From: Alphaproteobacteria bacterium
GTDB taxonomy: Bacteria; Pseudomonadota; Alphaproteobacteria; UBA8366
Reading direction: 5' to 3'
NCBI GenBank assembly: GCA_028281325.1
Contig: JANQKC010000026.1
Location: forward strand, 124,001 to 188,000
DNA: 64,000 nt
Shown: positions 51,515-64,000 of the stretch, piece after piece
Position numbering within the stretch: the stretch's first letter is position 1
How the letters are laid out: every line of letters begins with the position of its first letter
Program-made: the position numbers and the translations under genes
Notes under the pieces: model-generated
Database searches by the model: none
What the model was told of the DNA's origin: nothing
The model's input: the letters and a program-made list of their open reading frames with translations, nothing else

Positions 51515-52480
51515 TCAATCTTGCAGTTCGGGCACGACCCACAACGGCGCTTCGCCGCGCGCCACCCGCTGCACGTTGTCGAACGCGTTCCGCACGCGCG
51601 CCGTGTTGCTTTCGAAGGTCGGCCCCGCGAGATGCGCCGTCAGGATGACGTTCTCCAGACCGAACAACGGATTATCCGCTTGCGGCGGCTCCTGTTCGAA
51701 CACGTCCAGCCCAGCCGCGGAGATCACGCCGGTGGTCAATGCGGTGTACAGCGCCGCCTCGTCGACGACGGAGCCGCGCGCCGTGTTCACCAAGATCGAC
51801 GTCGGCTTCATCAACGCCAATTCCTCCGCACCGATCAGGTGACGCGTGGAGTCGTTCAGCGGCGTGTGCAGCGTCACCACGTCGGACAACTGCAGCAGCT
51901 CGCGCAACAAGCGGAACCGCACCTTGAGCGCGTCTTCCTCATCCTCGCGCAGACGCGCGATGTCGTAATAGATGACATCCATGCCGAAGGCCTGGCCGAG
52001 ACGGGCCGTCTTCTTGCCGATGGTGCCGAGACCGACGACGCCGAGCGTCTGGCCGCGCAATTCATGCAGGCGCGGCGTTACGTTGCCGCGCCAGCGCCCG
52101 CCGGTCACGCTCTTGTGCTGATGAACCAATTTTCGAGATACGGCCAGCGCCAGCAGGATCGCGTGTTCCGACACGGCGACCGCGTTCGCGCCGCCGTTGT
52201 TGGCCAGCGGTACCCCGGCCCGTCGCGCGGCCTCCAGGTCGGCCTTGTCGTATCCGGCGCTCAGCACTTGCACCAGTTTGAGGTTGGGCGCGGTCTTGTA
52301 GAGTTCGTCACGCACCAAGCCATCGACGAAGCCGACCAGGAACTGCGCCTCGGCCATCGCCTCTTCGTATTCAGCACCGCCGGCTGGGGCGACGACGAAA
52401 TCGAAACCCTTCGGCGCCATCTCGCGCGCGACATCGGCGGCGTCCGGAAAATCGGTCACGAAAACGATCTTAGGATCCAC
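51515..52480 (-). CDS. D-2-hydroxyacid dehydrogenase (GTG start)
   Basis: The 321-residue NAD(P)-dependent enzyme has LRGQTLGVVGLGTIGKKTARLG near residue 143 (GxGxxG), the catalytic Arg in ILVNTARGSVVDEAAL near 232, Glu in GLDVFEQEPPQADNP near 261 and His in NVILTAHLAGPTFESN near 281. These are the Arg-Glu-His triad of formate/D-lactate/hydroxypyruvate-type dehydrogenases. Only VD precede PKIVFV, and CAGGAGGATTC sits upstream of the GTG. It heads the cluster that continues through the flavoprotein, ACAD pair, CoA-transferase and hydrolase. Confidence 0.92.
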   Translation of the reverse strand: MDPKIVFVTDFPDAADVAREMAPKGFDFVVAPAGGAEYEEAMAEAQFLVGFVDGLVRDELYKTAPNLKLVQVLSAGYDKADLEAARRAGVPLANNGGANAVAVSEHAILLALAVSRKLVHQHKSVTGGRWRGNVTPRLHELRGQTLGVVGLGTIGKKTARLGQAFGMDVIYYDIARLREDEEDALKVRFRLLRELLQLSDVVTLHTPLNDSTRHLIGAEELALMKPTSILVNTARGSVVDEAALYTALTTGVISAAGLDVFEQEPPQADNPLFGLENVILTAHLAGPTFESNTARVRNAFDNVQRVARGEAPLWVVPELQD

Positions 52481-52599
52481 GAATCCTCCTGAAGCTCTTC
52501 ATTTTTCAAGGGACACCCTTCGGGAGCCGGCAACCGCAAGCGTTGCCGCCGAACACTGGAATTGCAGTATAGGATGGGCGCGCGCATCGACCCAAATCA

Positions 52600-52629
52600 G
52601 GTACGGCGGCAACGGGTACGGCGGCAACG
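52600..52629 (+). repeat. Two tandem copies of a 15-bp unit
   Basis: GTACGGCGGCAACGG is repeated twice head-to-tail (52601-52615 and 52616-52629, the last base differing). It lies in the gap between the leftward TauD and hydroxyacid dehydrogenase genes. It is probably slippage; a protein-binding site is possible but not supported by symmetry. Confidence 0.6.
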
Positions 52630-52631
52630 CG

Positions 52632-53510
52632 CTATGGCGCCGCCGGCCGGTCGCCGCGCACCTGCGTACGCCGCATGTAGCGCCGGTACTTGTGGTCGTT
52701 GTAGGGCGTGGCGCGATGCATCGTGCAACGGTTGTCCCAGACGACGAGATCGCCGTCGCGCCATTTGTGGCTGTAGACGAATGCATCCTGTGTCGCGAAG
52801 TCGATCAATTCGTCGACCAACGCCAACGCCGCGGCGCGATCCATCCCTTCGATATCCCGAATATCCGACAACGCCAGGAAAAGGCCGAGCTGGCCGGTTT
52901 CCGGGTGACGCCGGACCAGCGGGTGCGACACCGGCGGCACCTCTTTCAATTGTTCCGGCGTCAACGGCGGCCGGTCGGGATAGCGTTCGGCATAGCTGAA
53001 ATTACGGTCGTGGATCGCGACAAGGCCGTCGATCCGCTCTTTCATCGCGCCCGGCAACGCGGCATAGGCCGCGGTCATGTTGGCGAATTGCGTGTCCCCG
53101 CCTTCCGGCGGACAATCGTCGCCCAGCAGGAACGTGGCCAGCATCGGCCGTTCCTTGAACGACTGATCGGTATGCCAGACCATGCCGGACTTATGCGCGC
53201 CGACATACTCCCCTTCTTTCTTGTCGTTGCTGAGAATACGGATTTCGGGTTGCGACTTCTTTAAATGCTCCGCCAGATGATGGATGTCCATCGGACCGAA
53301 CCGCGCGGTGAAGGCCAGCAATGCCGCATCGTCCAAGTCTTGGTCGCGAAACACCAGAACCGCATGTTCAAGGAATAGCGCCCGCACCCGCTCGAAATCG
53401 GCGTCGGACAGCGGTCGCGACAGGTCGAGCCCCCTGATCTCGCCGGCAAACGTGGGCGTTAGCCGCCGGGCGGTCCCGGCCCAAATCACTGTTTTTTCGC
53501 TGGTCGGCAT
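52632..53510 (-). CDS. TauD/TfdA-family dioxygenase (3 of 4)
   Basis: The 292-residue protein has MVWHTDQSFKERPMLATFL (His-x-Asp near residues 113-115), NRCTMHRATPYND (distal His near 263) and RYMRRTQVRGDRP (2-oxoglutarate Arg). The N-terminus LTPTFAGEIRGLDLSRPLSD is the usual TauD/TfdA opening. It is upstream of, and in the same direction as, the hydroxyacid dehydrogenase-to-hydrolase cluster, with a 151-base gap, so it may feed it with a hydroxylated substrate. Its exact substrate is unknown. Confidence 0.9.
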   Translation of the reverse strand: MPTSEKTVIWAGTARRLTPTFAGEIRGLDLSRPLSDADFERVRALFLEHAVLVFRDQDLDDAALLAFTARFGPMDIHHLAEHLKKSQPEIRILSNDKKEGEYVGAHKSGMVWHTDQSFKERPMLATFLLGDDCPPEGGDTQFANMTAAYAALPGAMKERIDGLVAIHDRNFSYAERYPDRPPLTPEQLKEVPPVSHPLVRRHPETGQLGLFLALSDIRDIEGMDRAAALALVDELIDFATQDAFVYSHKWRDGDLVVWDNRCTMHRATPYNDHKYRRYMRRTQVRGDRPAAP

Positions 53511-56444: not shown

Positions 56445-57815
56445 CTACCCGCGCACGTCTTCGTAGTCGATCGGAAACATCTCGGTCGGCGTCTTGGGTT
56501 CGACGATATGATAGACGTTGAACCGATAGGCCGGACCGCACTCGATGTCGGACGGCGAGAAGGGAAAGGCCATATTCCCCTCGCGGCAAAGACGCCCCGG
56601 AAAATCATTATGCATCGTGTTGACCCGCGCCACCGCCAGGACGGCGTTGGCCGATTCCTGATCGTCGGCGATGACCTCGACCAGCAACCCGAGTTCGTGA
56701 CTCGGCGTGCCGCTCAGCGGTTCCCGTTCGGCCATGACGCCGTCGCGGCCATAGGTCCGAAAGTTGAGATGATAGCTGTCGGGCGGGAAGCCGAGGCCCT
56801 CCGCCTTCTGCGCAATATTCTCGCGCACGATATCGATGTAATTGTCATACCCTTCAATCAGCACCGGGTCGCGCGTGCCGCAGATCGTGATCGTGCGATA
56901 GCCGATCAGTTCGGCCCCTTCGATCTTGACCGTGTATTTGTCGTCTGGCGTCCATTTCATCCCGGAAATTCGCGTCGCGCGATCGGATACCGCCTCGAAC
57001 ACGCAATCGGATGCATCGAGCACGCCGCCCGGCTCCTGGAAGATCGTCGGACTGGAATTCTCGTGCAGGCTCTGGTTGGCAATCGACTCCGGCGTACAAT
57101 AGCGGATCGGGTTGGGGGATTCGCAGACCACGCCGCCGTCGTCCGTGATCGTGACATGGATACAGTCATGCGCCTTCGGCCAAGCGCCCGCACCGCCGCA
57201 TTCGAGCATCTTGCCCGCATACCACGCCGGCGCGGGCTCGGCCTGCGCGCGCATCGCGCAGGCGGCGAAAGGCGCAGGGTCGGTGCTGCGGCCGCCGAGA
57301 ACGACCAAAGCGCCCTGATCCAATGCCTCCATATAGGGTTCGGGTCCCATGCAGCCGACGATCCGCTCCGCCTTGTCGACCGTTTCGGCGTCGAGCGGCG
57401 GCACGTTGCGCATCGACTTCACCGTTCCCGCATCCAACTGTTTCTTGACCCAGGCCTTGTCCTGCTCGGCATGGATCGTCGCCATCTTGAAGGACAGACC
57501 GTCCTCGCGGGCGATCTCGCGCACGATATCGGCCATGACTTCCAGGTGCGGCTCGCCGCCCGCACCGCCGCAGGTGCCGACGGTGACGGGAATGTTGTGT
57601 TGCACCGCGGCGCGCAGCATCAACCGAATGTCGCGCTTCATCGCCTGCCGCGAATTCAGGGTCTTGCCCGAGCCGAGGTAGTGCGGTCCCGGATCGACGC
57701 TGCCGCCGTCGACGCCCAGCATGTCGACCCCCATTTCGATGCCGCGCTCCAGCGACTCCTCGGGATAGCCGTATCCCAGGATTCCGCTGGTCGAAAGCAG
57801 CCGGTAGTCGCCCAT
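56445..57815 (-). CDS. AtuA-like (DUF1446) acyclic-terpene-utilisation family protein
   Basis: The 456-residue protein has MGVDMLGVDGGSVDPGPHYLGSG near residue 29, NIPVTVGTCGGAGGEPHLEV near 76, PPLDAETVDKAERIVGCMGPEPYMEALDQGALVVLGGRSTDPAPFAACAM near 138-187 and AWPKAHDCIHVTITDDGGVV near 210, which are the AtuA/DUF1446 blocks. AtuA is needed for citronellol/geraniol use in Pseudomonas, but similar proteins occur in other acid catabolic clusters without terpene genes. No atu carboxylase is present here. It lies between TauD (71-base gap) and DUF4387. Confidence 0.88.
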   Translation of the reverse strand: MGDYRLLSTSGILGYGYPEESLERGIEMGVDMLGVDGGSVDPGPHYLGSGKTLNSRQAMKRDIRLMLRAAVQHNIPVTVGTCGGAGGEPHLEVMADIVREIAREDGLSFKMATIHAEQDKAWVKKQLDAGTVKSMRNVPPLDAETVDKAERIVGCMGPEPYMEALDQGALVVLGGRSTDPAPFAACAMRAQAEPAPAWYAGKMLECGGAGAWPKAHDCIHVTITDDGGVVCESPNPIRYCTPESIANQSLHENSSPTIFQEPGGVLDASDCVFEAVSDRATRISGMKWTPDDKYTVKIEGAELIGYRTITICGTRDPVLIEGYDNYIDIVRENIAQKAEGLGFPPDSYHLNFRTYGRDGVMAEREPLSGTPSHELGLLVEVIADDQESANAVLAVARVNTMHNDFPGRLCREGNMAFPFSPSDIECGPAYRFNVYHIVEPKTPTEMFPIDYEDVRG

Positions 57816-57886
57816 CGCATGCGCTCCGCGTCGGTTATGTCGGACGGTCAGGATAGTCGAACCGGTATCGGGGTGGCAAAACGGCC

Positions 57887-58756
57887 TCAGTACGGCCGGT
57901 CGCCCCGGACGAGCGCCCGGTAGAGCATCCGATGCTGCGAGTGATCGTAGTCGAACCGAGCCTGGTGCATCGACGACCGGTTGTCGACGATCAGCATATC
58001 GCCGAGCTTGTATTCATGGGTGTAGGAGAATTCCGGCTTGATCGCGGTTTCCACCAACTCGGCCAAGAATTCCTGTGTCTCTTCCGGCTCCATGCCGAGG
58101 ATCCTCTCGGTCTTCCCGGTGTGGAACCAGATCGCCTTGGTGCCACGCTCCGGATGGGTGCGGATCAGCGGCTGGATCATCAAGCCTGCATCGGACTCCT
58201 GCTGCTCCTTGACGATATCGGGGTTCGCGATCTTCATGCGCGCGCTGCTGACCAGGGAATTGGCCGTCTGCATCTTATCGAGCCGCGCGCGCAGATCCTC
58301 GGGCAGCGCCTCGAAAGCGGCGTGCGTATTACACACGGCGGTGCCGCCGCCGCTGTCCGGCAACGCCACGGGATAGAGCAAGGTGAATTTCGGTGGTCGT
58401 TCCTGGTTCGTATGGTCGGTGTGCCAGGTCGCATTCTTCGCCACCTTGGCCGGCTTGCCCGCGCTGTCCTTGTGCCGATTCGACAACACGCTGATCAACG
58501 GCTCGCCGTCCGCGAGATAGAGGCGGTTCTGATCCTCCATCAACTCGCCGAACTGTTCGGCGGCGGCCCTGAACTGCGACGCGGTGAAATGCTGGTCCCG
58601 AATGACCAGCACAACATGATCGACCAGCGCCTCGTACAGTCGGTCGCGCGTTTCGTCGTCGAGCGGTCTCGTCAGGTCGACGCCGGTCACCTCGGCGCCG
58701 ATCTGATCCTTGATCTTGGTGATTTTCAGGGGGCGGTCTTCGGCAAGAACGCTCAT
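57887..58756 (-). CDS. TauD/TfdA-family dioxygenase (4 of 4)
   Basis: The 289-residue protein starts MSVLAEDRPLKITKIKDQIG with GGAGGAAT upstream. The iron triad is in ATWHTDHTNQERPPKFTLLY (His-x-Asp near residues 109-111) and DNRSSMHQARFDYDHSQHRM. It is closest to copy 1 at 500 within the window. It forms a leftward unit with AtuA and DUF4387, so the dioxygenase probably prepares or finishes the AtuA substrate. A longer frame to 58975 has no family support. Confidence 0.9.
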   Translation of the reverse strand: MSVLAEDRPLKITKIKDQIGAEVTGVDLTRPLDDETRDRLYEALVDHVVLVIRDQHFTASQFRAAAEQFGELMEDQNRLYLADGEPLISVLSNRHKDSAGKPAKVAKNATWHTDHTNQERPPKFTLLYPVALPDSGGGTAVCNTHAAFEALPEDLRARLDKMQTANSLVSSARMKIANPDIVKEQQESDAGLMIQPLIRTHPERGTKAIWFHTGKTERILGMEPEETQEFLAELVETAIKPEFSYTHEYKLGDMLIVDNRSSMHQARFDYDHSQHRMLYRALVRGDRPY

Positions 58757-59104
58757 GGAACAATTCCTCCGGATCGTGGGCGGTAAAACAGTATCGCATA
58801 TTCTGCGCCTTTCTGCCGAATGCGGCCGTCCGTGATAGATATCCAGCCCGCGCGGCAGGAATGAATCGCCATGAGACGCAGGCAATTCGACCCAGAACGG
58901 CATTGTCCCGACAATCGGCTGTCGGTCCGGTGCGACGGCGCGCAACCCCACTTCTGAATCGCGTTCCGCCGCCATTCTTCACAAAACAGTAGTGATCCGT
59001 TCCGGCAAGCGCGCCGTAGCACTCATGATAACGCAGCCTGCGAGTGATTATCACTAACGCCCCGCGGGCCGTCATTCTTTTCACATCGCACGGGAGAGAC
59101 TTTC
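58757..59104. promoter_or_regulatory. Divergent region with AGTGATTATCACT palindrome
   Basis: No gene is evident in these 348 bases between TauD and the fasciclin gene. A 13-bp palindrome, AGTGATTATCACT (59043-59055), lies 50 bases upstream of the fasciclin ATG, next to CACTCATGATAA at 59020-59031, a partly matching half. It could be an operator for the secretion locus. GGGAGAGA just before 59105 is the ribosome-binding site. Confidence 0.45.
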
Positions 59105-61012
59105 ATGTCGCATACCGATACGTCGCTCACCATTGCCGGACTTGTCGCCGGTTCGGATGACTTCAATATTCTCTTCAAGGCGGTCGTCGCCGCGGGTCTC
59201 GACGACGACCTGGCCGCGCCGAACGCCGATCTGACCGTCTTCGCGCCGACGGACGACGCCTTCGTACAATTGGCGAAGGATTTCGGTTTCGACGGCGACC
59301 CGCATGACGAAGACGCGGTCTTCGACGCGATCGCCGGCGCGCTGGCCGGGCTTGCGCCCGACGGCAACCCGATCCCCGTGTTGACCAACGTTCTGCTGTA
59401 CCACGTCTCGCCGGGCGCGAAACCCTTGGCCGAGGTGGCGGCGCTGGACAATGTGCCGACCTTGCTGAGCGGCGCGACCTTCTCGCCGGACGGCACGACC
59501 CTGGTCGATAACGAACCGGACCTTCCGGATCCGTCTCTGATCCAAACCGATGTCCCCACGGCCAACGGCATCGTCCATGTCATCGACCGCGTGTTGATCC
59601 CGCTGGATATCCCCGGCAACGAGTCGAACGAGTTGGTCATCGAAGCGGAAGATTTCCATTTGTCCGGCTACAAGGTCGAGCATGACGGCGATGCATCCGG
59701 CGACGCCTTGATCAAGCTGTCATCCCATACGGGCAGCGCGACGACGGTGTTCGAGGGCCCGACCGGGCAATATGACCTGACGCTCGATTACTTCGACGAA
59801 ATCGACGGCAACGCCATGATCGACGTCCTGATCGACGGCGAGCCGGTAAAGCAGATTTCGTTGGACCAGGAGCTGGGCGGGAGGTTTGCGTCGGCGGAAA
59901 ACGCAACCTCGATTACCATCGAAGGTCTTGAGCTGGAAACCGGGTCCACGATCGAATTGGTCGGCCGGCGCGACGATAACGAATTCGCGCGGATCGACAA
60001 GGTCACGCTGACGCCCGCCGAACCTTCCGATCCGGGCGAACCGACGGAGCCCACGGAGCCGCCGACCATCGCCGAGATCGCGACCGACGACGGCAACTTC
60101 GGCATCCTGTTGAAAGCGCTGGAAGCGGCGAACCTGACCGCGCCCTTCGTCGACCCCGACTCCGACCTGACGGTCTTCGCGCCGACCGACGACGCCTTCG
60201 CGCAACTGGCCAGGGATTTCGGGTTCACCGGCGACACGTCGGATGACGACGCCGTCTTCAACGCCATCGCCGAAGCGTTGGCGGGCCTCGCGCCGGACGG
60301 CGATCCGATCCCGGTGTTAACCAATGTGCTGCTCTATCACGTGTCGCCGGAGGCCAAGCTGCTTGCCGAGGTCGCGGCGTTGGAAAATGTCCCGACCCTG
60401 CTTGAAGGGGCGACCTTCTCGCCGGACGGCACGACGCTGGTCGACAACGAGCCGGACCTCCAGGACCCGACGCTGGTCGACACCGATATCGAGGCGTCCA
60501 ACGGCGTCATCCACGTCATCGACCGCGTCCTCATCCCGCTCGACATTCCCGGCAACGAGCCGGCCGAAACCGTCGTCGAAGCGGAGGATATGCACCTGTC
60601 CGGCTACAAGGTGGAGCATGAAAGTGACGCCTCGGGCGATGCGTTGATCAAGCTGTCAAGCCACGAAGGCACCGCATCGACGACATTCGACGGCCCGTCG
60701 GGCGCATACGACCTCAAGCTGCATTATTTCGACGAGATCGACGGCGAAACGTCCATCGCGATCTATGTCAACGACGACCGGGTCGAACAGTTCCATCTCG
60801 ACCAGGAGTTGGGCGGACGGTTCGCCAGCACGGAAAATGCGGCATCGATCACGATCGAAGGGCTCGAACTCGAACAGGGAGACTCGATCAAGTTTCTCGG
60901 CGTTCGGGACGACAACGAGTTTGCGCGGATCGACAAATTCGTGCTGTCGCCTTCGATTTACGACGACGAGTCCCCCGACGTCATTTCCGTGACCGAAGAC
61001 GCACTCGTCTAA
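59105..61012 (+). CDS. Duplicated FAS1 plus carbohydrate-binding-like protein, predicted type I secretion substrate
   Basis: The 635-residue, very acidic protein is an internal tandem duplication. Each half has a fasciclin (FAS1) domain (residues about 1-175 and 320-490: LTVFAPTDDAFVQLAKDFGF, VLTNVLLYHVSPGAKPLAEV, IVHVIDRVLIPLDIPGN) followed by a beta-sandwich like CBM6/35 (residues about 176-302 and 491-615: VIEAEDFHLSGYKVEHDG and NEFARIDKVTLTP). A Pro/Glu-rich linker (about 304-320) joins the halves. There is no N-terminal signal peptide. The extreme end, SVTEDALV, has acidic residues followed by hydrophobic ones, like C-terminal type I secretion signals. The genes that follow encode such a transporter. 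Likely a cell-surface or matrix adhesin. Confidence 0.88.
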   Translation: MSHTDTSLTIAGLVAGSDDFNILFKAVVAAGLDDDLAAPNADLTVFAPTDDAFVQLAKDFGFDGDPHDEDAVFDAIAGALAGLAPDGNPIPVLTNVLLYHVSPGAKPLAEVAALDNVPTLLSGATFSPDGTTLVDNEPDLPDPSLIQTDVPTANGIVHVIDRVLIPLDIPGNESNELVIEAEDFHLSGYKVEHDGDASGDALIKLSSHTGSATTVFEGPTGQYDLTLDYFDEIDGNAMIDVLIDGEPVKQISLDQELGGRFASAENATSITIEGLELETGSTIELVGRRDDNEFARIDKVTLTPAEPSDPGEPTEPTEPPTIAEIATDDGNFGILLKALEAANLTAPFVDPDSDLTVFAPTDDAFAQLARDFGFTGDTSDDDAVFNAIAEALAGLAPDGDPIPVLTNVLLYHVSPEAKLLAEVAALENVPTLLEGATFSPDGTTLVDNEPDLQDPTLVDTDIEASNGVIHVIDRVLIPLDIPGNEPAETVVEAEDMHLSGYKVEHESDASGDALIKLSSHEGTASTTFDGPSGAYDLKLHYFDEIDGETSIAIYVNDDRVEQFHLDQELGGRFASTENAASITIEGLELEQGDSIKFLGVRDDNEFARIDKFVLSPSIYDDESPDVISVTEDALV

Positions 61013-61024
61013 TTCGCCATGGCA

Positions 61025-61066
61025 TTGCGCCGGCGGCCGGCATTTATTCGCCGCCCGCCGGCGCAA
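61025..61066 (+). terminator. Strong GC hairpin between substrate and transporter genes
   Basis: Perfect 12-bp arms TTGCGCCGGCGG and CCGCCGGCGCAA are separated by an 18-base loop. There is no U-tract, so it may attenuate, stabilise the 3' end of the adhesin mRNA, or act with Rho. It lies 12 bases after the adhesin stop and 46 before the ABC gene, a position suited to setting substrate levels above those of the transporter. Confidence 0.65.
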
Positions 61067-61112
61067 TCCGAAAACACGGCCAATAAGCCAAGACTAAGCC
61101 AGGGAGGGCGTC

Positions 61113-62870
61113 ATGGCAGCGAATTCCAATCGACCCGAAACGACACATGAGCTTTCTAAAGCTATCGCCGCCAGCCGCGGCCTGTTGGCGGCGGTGGCGA
61201 TTTTCAGCGTGTTCGCGAACCTGCTGATGCTGACCGGCCCGCTCTTCATGCTGCAAGTCTACGACCGGGTACTCGCCAGCGGGTCGATCGAAACCCTTAC
61301 CGCCTTGTTCCTGTTGGTGACCGGCCTGTTCCTGATCTTTGGTTTGCTGGACTTTGCGCGCGGCCGATTGATGGGGCGCGTCGGCGCGCGCGCGCAGACA
61401 CTGTTGGGCCGCCGCGCGGACGGCATCGCTATGACCGGCGCGATATCCGGCCCCTCGCCCGACCCGAATATCGATGTCCGCACCGCGCCACGCGATCTGA
61501 CCGCATTGCAAAAGGGGTTGGCGGGAGGCGCTCCCTTCGTCTTTTTCGATATGCCGTGGGTGCCGATCTTCCTGGCCGCCATGTTCGTTTTCCATCCCTG
61601 GCTCGGCATTCTCGGCTGCGTCGGCGGCCTCGTGATGGTCGCGGTGACCGCCCTGAACCAGTGGCGCACGCGGGCCGCGCTGAACGACGCGCAAAGCCTG
61701 GACCACCATGCGACGCGGCTTTCGGATGCCGCGCAGCAGGATGCCGGCGTGATCAAGGCGCTCGGCATGAAGGAAGCGATCCTGGCTCGGCTGGGCGCGG
61801 CCCGGCAGGACGCGCTGGCCGCCGGCACCGCCGCCAGCGACCGGTCGGGGGCATACACCTCGGCCTCCAAATCGCTGCGCTTCTACTTGCAATCCGCCAT
61901 CCTGGCGCTCGGCGCGGCGCTCGCCATCGCCGGCGACATCACGCCGGGTGCGATGATCGCCGCGTCGATCCTGATGGGCCGGGCCCTCGCCCCGGTCGAA
62001 CAGGGCATCGCGCAATGGCCGACGATCCAACACTGCCTGACGGCATGGCGGCGGCTCAAAGCCACCTTGGCCGAATTCCCGGCCGAACCGGAAAAGACCG
62101 AATTGCCCGCGCCGCAGTCCCGGCTGGAAGTCCGGAACCTGACCGTGGCCGCGCCCGGCTCGGATGCGTTGGCGGTCATCGGGCTGACCTTCGATCTCGC
62201 GCCCGGCGAGTCCATGGGGGTCATCGGGCGCAGCGCCAGCGGGAAATCCTCGCTGGCGCGCGCGCTGGCCAATATCTGGGAACCGGCGGCGGGTTCGGTC
62301 CGGCTGGATAGCGCGACCTACGACCAATGGCCCGCCGACGCGCTCGGCGCGCATATCGGGTATCTGCCGCAGGACGTGACACTGATGTCCGGCACCGTCG
62401 CCGAGAACATTGCCCGCATGCAGCATCCCGTCGACGCGCGGGGCGTCATCGCCGCAGCCAAGGCGGCACGGGCGCATGAGGTCATCCTGCGCCTGCCGCA
62501 AGGATACGAAACGCCGGTCGGCGACGGCAGCAGCACCTTGTCCGGCGGACAGCGGCAGCGCATCGGGCTCGCGCGCGCGCTCTTCGGCGATCCCGCGCTG
62601 GTGATCCTGGACGAACCCAACGCCCACCTGGATTCCGACGGCGAGACGGCGCTCATCGAGACCATCACGGAATTAAAGCAACGCGGGAAGGCGGTCGTCG
62701 TCATGGCGCACCGGCCGAACGGCATTGCGGCCTGCGATACGTTGCTGGTCCTCGACAAGGGACGGCAGCGGGGCTGGGGTCCGCGCGACGAGATTCTGCA
62801 ACAGTTCGGAAAACCCCGCGCGCCCGTCGAAGACAATGACGCGCTGCGCCGGGCAACGGGCGGGAGCTAG
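61113..62870 (+). CDS. Type I secretion ABC transporter (PrtD-type permease-ATPase)
   Basis: The 585-residue protein fuses a membrane domain to an ATPase. LLAAVAIFSVFANLLMLTGPLFMLQVYDRVL near residues 24-54 is the signature of PrtD-type exporters. The ATPase has Walker A GRSASGKSS near residue 371, signature LSGGQRQRIGLARALFG near 478, Walker B ALVILDEPNAHLD near 498 (Asn where Thr is usual) and switch His MAHRPNGIAACD. It should export the upstream adhesin directly from cytoplasm to outside with an HlyD-like adaptor and a TolC-like porin. GGGAGGGC precedes the ATG. Confidence 0.93.
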   Translation: MAANSNRPETTHELSKAIAASRGLLAAVAIFSVFANLLMLTGPLFMLQVYDRVLASGSIETLTALFLLVTGLFLIFGLLDFARGRLMGRVGARAQTLLGRRADGIAMTGAISGPSPDPNIDVRTAPRDLTALQKGLAGGAPFVFFDMPWVPIFLAAMFVFHPWLGILGCVGGLVMVAVTALNQWRTRAALNDAQSLDHHATRLSDAAQQDAGVIKALGMKEAILARLGAARQDALAAGTAASDRSGAYTSASKSLRFYLQSAILALGAALAIAGDITPGAMIAASILMGRALAPVEQGIAQWPTIQHCLTAWRRLKATLAEFPAEPEKTELPAPQSRLEVRNLTVAAPGSDALAVIGLTFDLAPGESMGVIGRSASGKSSLARALANIWEPAAGSVRLDSATYDQWPADALGAHIGYLPQDVTLMSGTVAENIARMQHPVDARGVIAAAKAARAHEVILRLPQGYETPVGDGSSTLSGGQRQRIGLARALFGDPALVILDEPNAHLDSDGETALIETITELKQRGKAVVVMAHRPNGIAACDTLLVLDKGRQRGWGPRDEILQQFGKPRAPVEDNDALRRATGGS

Positions 62871-62873
62871 GCT

Positions 62874-64000
62874 ATGAACGGTACTGACCCCCAAAACGAT
62901 GCGGTGCGCCAATGGCGCGGCGCCAAACATCTTCTGATCGGCGGGTTCGCCTTGGTCATTCTGCTTGGCGGATTGGCCGGCTGGTCCGTGCTGGCGTCGA
63001 TTTCCGGCGCGGTCATCGCGGCGGGCCAATTGCAGGTCGAGGCGAACCGGCAGGTCGTGCAGCATCCGGACGGCGGCGTGATCCAGGAAATCCTCGTCGA
63101 GGACGGCGACGTCGTGGAAGCAGGCCAGGTCCTGGTGCGATTCGACGGATCCCTGCTGAGCACCCAGTTCTCGATGCTCGACAATCAGCTTTACGGCACG
63201 CGCGCGCGCATCGCCCGCCTCATCGCGGAACGGGACGGACGCGCGGCGGTCGCTTTCGACGAGGCCCTGCGCGCCGACGCCGCGGAGAAATCCGACCGCC
63301 AAGATCTGTTGGATGCGCAGATCAGCCTGTTTACCGCGCGCGCCGAGACCCTGAGCCGGCAACTCGCGCAACTGCGCACGCGGCAAGACCAATTCAAACG
63401 CGAGATCAGCGGCCTTGAGGCGCAAAAGAAATCGACCGAGCAACAACTCGCGCTCATCGGGCGCGAGCTGGCCGGCCAGCGTCAACTCTTCGACAAAGGC
63501 CACGCCCGGGCGGTGCGCGTCTATCAGCTGGAACGCCAAAAGGCGGAGCTTGCGGGACAACTGGGCGAGCGCGAGTCCGACATCGCGCAATCGCAAGGGC
63601 GGATCGCCGAAATCGAGATCGAAATGCTGCGCCTCGCCGCCACCCGGCGCGAAGACGCGATCACCCAACTGCGCACGCTCCGGGCGGAGGAGTCGGATCT
63701 GGTCGAACGCCACCGCGCGACATCGACGATGCTGTCGCGGCTGGAGGTCCGTGCGCCGCGCGCCGGCACGGTCCTCGACCGGTCGGTTCACGCCCTGCGG
63801 TCGGTGGTCCGGCCTGCGGACCCGATTCTGTATATCGTCCCGTCGGATTCCACGCTGGTCGTTCAAGCGCGGGTCAGTCCGGCAAATGTCGACGACCTGT
63901 ACCCCCGGCAAACCGCGAAACTACGCTTCTCCTCCTTCAACGCGCGGACCACGCCCGAACTGGAAGGCGTGGTCCAAACGATCTCCGCCGATGCGCTGGT
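62874..64000 (+). CDS. HlyD-family periplasmic adaptor (C-terminus beyond window)
   Basis: At least 375 residues are encoded. An N-terminal membrane anchor (HLLIGGFALVILLGGLAGWS, about residues 19-38) is followed by the lipoyl/barrel domain (AGQLQVEANRQVVQHPDGGVIQEILVEDGDVVEAG, typical of PrtE/HlyD), a long coiled coil (about residues 105-280) and RLEVRAPRAGTVLDRSVH, VVRPADPILYIVPSDSTLVV. It starts three bases after the ABC gene and is the second component of the type I exporter; the outer-membrane part is not visible. Confidence 0.93.
   Translation, partial: MNGTDPQNDAVRQWRGAKHLLIGGFALVILLGGLAGWSVLASISGAVIAAGQLQVEANRQVVQHPDGGVIQEILVEDGDVVEAGQVLVRFDGSLLSTQFSMLDNQLYGTRARIARLIAERDGRAAVAFDEALRADAAEKSDRQDLLDAQISLFTARAETLSRQLAQLRTRQDQFKREISGLEAQKKSTEQQLALIGRELAGQRQLFDKGHARAVRVYQLERQKAELAGQLGERESDIAQSQGRIAEIEIEMLRLAATRREDAITQLRTLRAEESDLVERHRATSTMLSRLEVRAPRAGTVLDRSVHALRSVVRPADPILYIVPSDSTLVVQARVSPANVDDLYPRQTAKLRFSSFNARTTPELEGVVQTISADAL

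Follow-up and report, generated by a model that had tools for sequence, protein, structure and literature searches.

A FAS1 and CBM-like protein without RTX repeats, encoded in an operon with a PrtD/HlyD exporter: a candidate type I secretion substrate in an alphaproteobacterium

Organization of the operon

The window analyzed here, a 64,000-nucleotide stretch of an alphaproteobacterial contig, ends in three consecutive genes on the plus strand. The first (59105..61012) encodes a 635-aa protein, hereafter the substrate, and is preceded by a Shine-Dalgarno-like GGGAGAGA at 59092..59099 on the same strand, read from the sequence. It is followed after 100 bp by prtD (61113..62870), which encodes a 585-aa type I secretion permease/ATPase matching TIGR01842 at 620 bits (cut-off 510), and after a further 3 bp by hlyD, which encodes a periplasmic adaptor matching TIGR01843. 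The hlyD gene starts at 62874 and is cut by the window edge at 64000; its in-window part scores 260.6 bits against an NCBIfam cut-off of 209, and the complete 440-aa ORF is present in the whole genome (L005), ending at the equivalent of 64196. The interval 59105-64000 thereby leaves out 196 bases of hlyD that lie past the window. The three genes form a compact operon, and the secretion system that it encodes is in itself an ordinary one.

Between the substrate gene and prtD lies an inverted repeat with 18-bp arms and an 8-nt loop (61024..61067, plus strand) that folds far better than shuffled versions of itself (z of -3.95, 0 of 200 shuffles). Since this strong fold is followed by no T-run, the repeat may tune the cargo-to-exporter ratio instead of terminating transcription.

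The neighbors of the operon, a TauD-family dioxygenase gene upstream and a D-2-hydroxyacid dehydrogenase gene downstream, are both on the opposite strand. The wider surroundings consist of TauD-type dioxygenase, AtuA-family and D-2-hydroxyacid dehydrogenase genes (window 51515-53510 and 56445-58975; L005:6221-7228), two of these three types being present twice, and the operon is possibly an insertion into a catabolic cluster.

Domain structure of the substrate

The substrate is built as FAS1-CBM-FAS1-CBM-tail, all on the plus strand. Two copies of the FAS1 domain were detected with Pfam PF02469 (E 7e-41, 139.7 bits; cut-off 22), at residues 8-172 (59126..59620) and 319-482 (60059..60550), and each is followed by a CBM-like domain, at residues 175-306 (59627..60022) and 485-613 (60557..60943). 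The two CBM-like domains are 68% identical, and the whole FAS1-CBM modules show 71% protein and 72% DNA identity over aligned positions, so that the protein represents a real duplication. It has a pI of 4.05 and contains no cysteine or tryptophan. Its reading frame is unbroken over 635 codons, with a GC3 of 82% that is near that of the exporter genes.

No N-terminal Sec signal is present, as judged from the N-terminal sequence and a scan for upstream start codons. The ATG is separated by 19 codons from the in-frame stop upstream of it, at 59045; as none of these codons is ATG, GTG or TTG, a signal peptide is not supplied by an alternative start, and a longer, Sec-targeted form of the protein was rejected.

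RTX repeats were likewise not found in the substrate, either as PF00353 in Pfam or in an RTX pattern scan (0 matches); the substrate is not an RTX protein. Its last 50 residues are acidic (net charge -9), and the protein closes with a 22-residue acidic tail ending in TEDALV (60944..61009, plus strand), a candidate uncleaved type I signal. An [FLI][VAI] ending has been reported for RTX cargo (PMC8861453) and occurs in 11 of 23 RTX proteins versus 32 of 1262 other ORFs, an approximate contrast as the controls include spurious ORFs. The final LV of the substrate fits this pattern, which alone is weak evidence.

Sequence-level assignment of the CBM-like module to a Pfam family or a solved CBM failed, and fold comparison alone succeeded. 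The CBM-like segments have no match in Pfam, including its CBM families, and a profile search of PDB sequences with such a segment returned marginal matches only, with CBM6, CBM35 and CBM36 entries absent. An AlphaFold model of CBM-like domain 2, made from the two window copies only and with a mean pLDDT of 66, was then compared to the PDB using Foldseek, which matched it to CBM6, CBM36 and CBM35 structures with E-values of 2e-7 to 1e-5 and a TM-score of about 0.6. A second AlphaFold model, of an entire FAS1-CBM module, is confident in the FAS1 part and moderate in the CBM part. These matches to solved structures mean that the label "CBM-like" holds at the level of the fold, and at the moderate confidence of the model the module is a predicted beta-sandwich of the CBM6/35/36 type.

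The earlier note, made from the sequence alone, had described a signal-less acidic protein of two FAS1 plus CBM-like modules, without a visible RTX nonapeptide and ending in EDALV, with a PrtD-type exporter and an HlyD-type adaptor directly downstream. All of these points stand, the CBM part at fold level, and the structure prediction that the note called for yielded the beta-sandwich described above.

Relatives of the two halves of the substrate

Relatives of the FAS1 half or the CBM half were found in 58 of the 395 Rhodobacterales genomes searched. These searches were samples of genomes, and statements that the linkage of a FAS1-CBM protein to an exporter is absent elsewhere hold for the matches listed.

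RTX repeats are present in 23 of the 27 proteins examined that carry this FAS1 subtype, drawn from these genomes and further loci and nearly all of them from Rhodobacterales, and 22 of the 27 contain no cysteine. Leader-like N-termini occur in more distant FAS1 relatives, from Acidimicrobiales, Oleiphilus and Phycisphaerales (L072, L073, L074). With both RTX-type and leader-bearing relatives, this FAS1 subtype is found with either export route. The notion of FAS1 proteins as atypical type I cargo thus fails for this subtype, and Sec-like leaders among homologs, which would have counted against type I export, are confined to the distant relatives and not seen in the alphaproteobacterial ones. 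Two further FAS1 cases were also noted: a two-FAS1 protein of this subtype has a hydrophobic, membrane-anchor-like end in place of RTX (L066:7141-8403), and FAS1 domains are encoded on contigs of a viral collection (L151-L170). No CBM relatives were found in viral contigs.

Five of the 23 CBM proteins (L069, L240, L305, L306 and L311) are free of RTX blocks and of cysteine and terminate 7-10 residues past their last CBM in short, hydrophobic tails (ADALFA, SDLLA, SDLMIA, NDELIA and NDEPIA). Stray matches to the RTX pattern occur in the two large ones, two in L240 and one in L311, neither amounting to an RTX block. Two of the five (L069:10654-12861 and L240:3278-9541), with no evident signal, are encoded on the 58-kb plasmid pQS-1 of Parasedimentitalea psychrophila, which also bears polysaccharide genes and a PrtD. 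The remaining CBM proteins are mostly cysteine-rich and of a different build. Separately, a Rhodobacterales family (L300, L302, L303, L308, L309, L319, L321, L324 and others) has an N-terminus like YEWTAFTEADLL, a CBM-like domain, many cysteines and a conserved QPFI...DCLC ending, with SdrD-B and cadherin-like domains detected by Pfam on L302, the one member so analyzed.

The prevalence of RTX among nearly all of the nearest FAS1 relatives could also mean that the cargo lost an earlier RTX block and that its export is now inefficient or absent. The intact 635-codon frame, the well-kept duplicated modules and a GC3 near that of the exporter genes argue against such decay, and the same CBM ends other proteins that are free of RTX; we consider this course of events quite unlikely.

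FAS1 and this CBM were not found together in one protein among the 27 FAS1 and 23 CBM proteins. The FAS1-CBM/exporter linkage was not found in the same order or in the Rhodobacterales loci fetched, and no PrtD or HlyD was present in the flanks of 40 Rhodobacterales loci, inspected over about 4-10 kb per side. The linkage of cargo and exporter therefore rests on one genome together with a related case in Rhodobacter CZR27 (L260), where a cysteine-containing CBM protein, which belongs to the YEWTAFTEADLL family, adjoins a PrtD/HlyD pair and an exosortase E gene. In a literature search for fasciclin with type I secretion, the two topics occur together in PMC4390845, unrelated to each other.

Origin of the exporter

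In a maximum-likelihood tree, the PrtD of the operon falls outside its own order and groups with exporters of Rhodobacterales and Rhizobium (support 100/100). Several members of this group adjoin RTX proteins and polysaccharide genes, and the same bacteria are also those that carry relatives of the FAS1 and CBM halves. In a genome of the same genus, no comparable PrtD was found, and the CBM half had no match. The tree placement, combined with the lack of a comparable PrtD in that genome, suggests that the operon was probably acquired horizontally.

Within the same order, the gene immediately before prtD encodes an RTX protein in 4 of 10 prtD loci, arranged as in the operon studied here, and in none of the other 6. 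The substrate gene thus occupies the slot usually taken by cargo. Conservation of the exporter beside RTX cargo had been named as an observation that would refute the proposal; it does apply to the exporter family, and it does not contradict export of the substrate.

These data also bear on whether the adjacency is accidental, with the FAS1-CBM protein remaining in the cytoplasm or leaving by another route and PrtD/HlyD having lost an original cargo gene. Such an accident would account for the lack of RTX in the substrate, for a linkage seen in one genome only and for the RTX cargo served by most related exporters. It fits poorly with a substrate that has neither a signal nor an upstream start, with genes that are closely spaced on one strand, and with a cargo slot shared with related operons. 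Furthermore, the relatives of each half resemble extracellular cargo that does not use Sec, which counts in favor of export of the substrate, and we regard accidental adjacency as unlikely.

Other type I secretion components in the genome

The PrtD of the operon is the only one in the genome above the cut-off. The operon lacks a TolC-type outer membrane protein; one is encoded on contig C12 (TIGR01844, 324.7 bits, above the cut-off), in surroundings that read as ordinary chromosomal genes, and it is most likely the outer membrane partner of PrtD/HlyD. Two RTX proteins, at C13:76493 (L197) and C16:69031 (L198), have no exporter in the adjacent sequence seen; the former reaches the contig end, leaving its neighborhood partly unseen, and the latter also carries FecR and DUF4114 domains. 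A second, divergent exporter ABC protein is found at C39:65612-70048 (L196) with a TolC-like protein close by.

With a single PrtD above the cut-off and two unlinked RTX proteins, the exporter may be shared. The description of the system as dedicated to the substrate is not earned, also in view of the RTX cargo of related exporters. The exporter could instead be a generalist comparable to the Rhizobium PrsDE, which exports many unlinked proteins (PMC5061743; PMC9298526), and here it would carry both the FAS1-CBM protein and the RTX proteins of C13 and C16. On the other side, the divergent C39 exporter with its own TolC-like protein could serve the RTX proteins, and the neighborhood of the C13 protein was seen only in part. 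We give a general exporter slightly less than even odds.

Proposed export and function

Taken together, we favor, with a probability of roughly 70%, an acquired substrate-prtD-hlyD operon whose RTX-less cargo is exported by PrtD, HlyD and TolC as a matrix protein or adhesin. In such a system the 635-aa protein would remain in the cytoplasm in an unfolded or loosely folded state until the PrtD ABC transporter recognizes its uncleaved C-terminus, and it would then pass in one step from PrtD through HlyD to a TolC-type protein encoded elsewhere, probably that of C12. Outside the cell, the acidic FAS1 and CBM-type beta-sandwich domains would fold, probably assisted by calcium, and might attach to extracellular polysaccharide or to a different surface. 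That the operon encodes a non-RTX type I substrate next to its exporter, as the earlier note proposed, is well supported; the role of this substrate in adhesion or matrix binding is one that we infer.

It is the cargo that is unusual, in that FAS1 is joined to a CBM, the RTX block is missing and a CBM lies near the C-terminus. The new element here is the combination of domains and, possibly, the use of a CBM-type module in place of the RTX block. A more tentative extension, which we think rather doubtful, is that a calcium-folding CBM6/35 beta-sandwich near the C-terminus replaces the RTX block as the module whose folding outside the cell is tied to export and, together with a short acidic-hydrophobic tail, would define an RTX-free class of alphaproteobacterial cargo including the substrate, L069, L240, L305, L306 and L311.

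RTX repeats guide searches for type I cargo, and the operon and its RTX-free, CBM-ended relatives suggest that a set of extracellular polysaccharide-binding proteins escapes this approach. FAS1 proteins that are closely related but differ in the presence of RTX would provide a natural pair for testing what the RTX block contributes to export.

Comparison with known systems

RTX repeats are not essential for exporters of the PrtD class, as seen with RTX-free cargo of the HasA type, although HasA is a haemophore and is unrelated to the substrate in sequence and purpose. The FAS1-RTX proteins of Rhodobacterales (such as L064, L076 and L290) share with the substrate the same long FAS1 subtype, at up to 61% identity, and are also acidic, mostly cysteine-free and without an evident Sec signal. 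They differ in possessing RTX, in lacking the CBM and in having no exporter beside them in the loci fetched. The five CBM-ended Rhodobacterales proteins resemble the other half of the substrate, with a CBM-like module near the C-terminus, a short hydrophobic ending, and no RTX block, cysteine or evident signal. Their N-terminal parts are beta-helical or unassigned rather than FAS1, and their tails are 7-10 residues long compared to 22 in the substrate, export being putative for both.

The Rap/PrsDE system of Rhizobium leguminosarum uses, like the operon, an alphaproteobacterial exporter of the PrtD/HlyD type. Its substrate RapA2 depends on PrsDE, folds with calcium and binds exopolysaccharide, and is listed apart from the RTX-labeled PrsDE substrates (PMC5061743; PMC9298526). 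RapA2 resembles the substrate in being a small cargo of two like domains, with a role in the biofilm matrix. RapA2 is not known to carry RTX repeats. Rap proteins are composed of cadherin-like (Ra/CHDL) domains, whereas the substrate consists of FAS1 and CBM; no Ra/CHDL domain was found in the substrate by Pfam, so it falls outside the Rap family. Many rap genes are located apart from prsDE, unlike the substrate gene, which adjoins prtD, and calcium and ligand are proven for RapA2 and putative for the substrate. By analogy, the best reading is that the substrate would work as RapA2 does, as an RTX-free type I cargo that binds matrix or polysaccharide.
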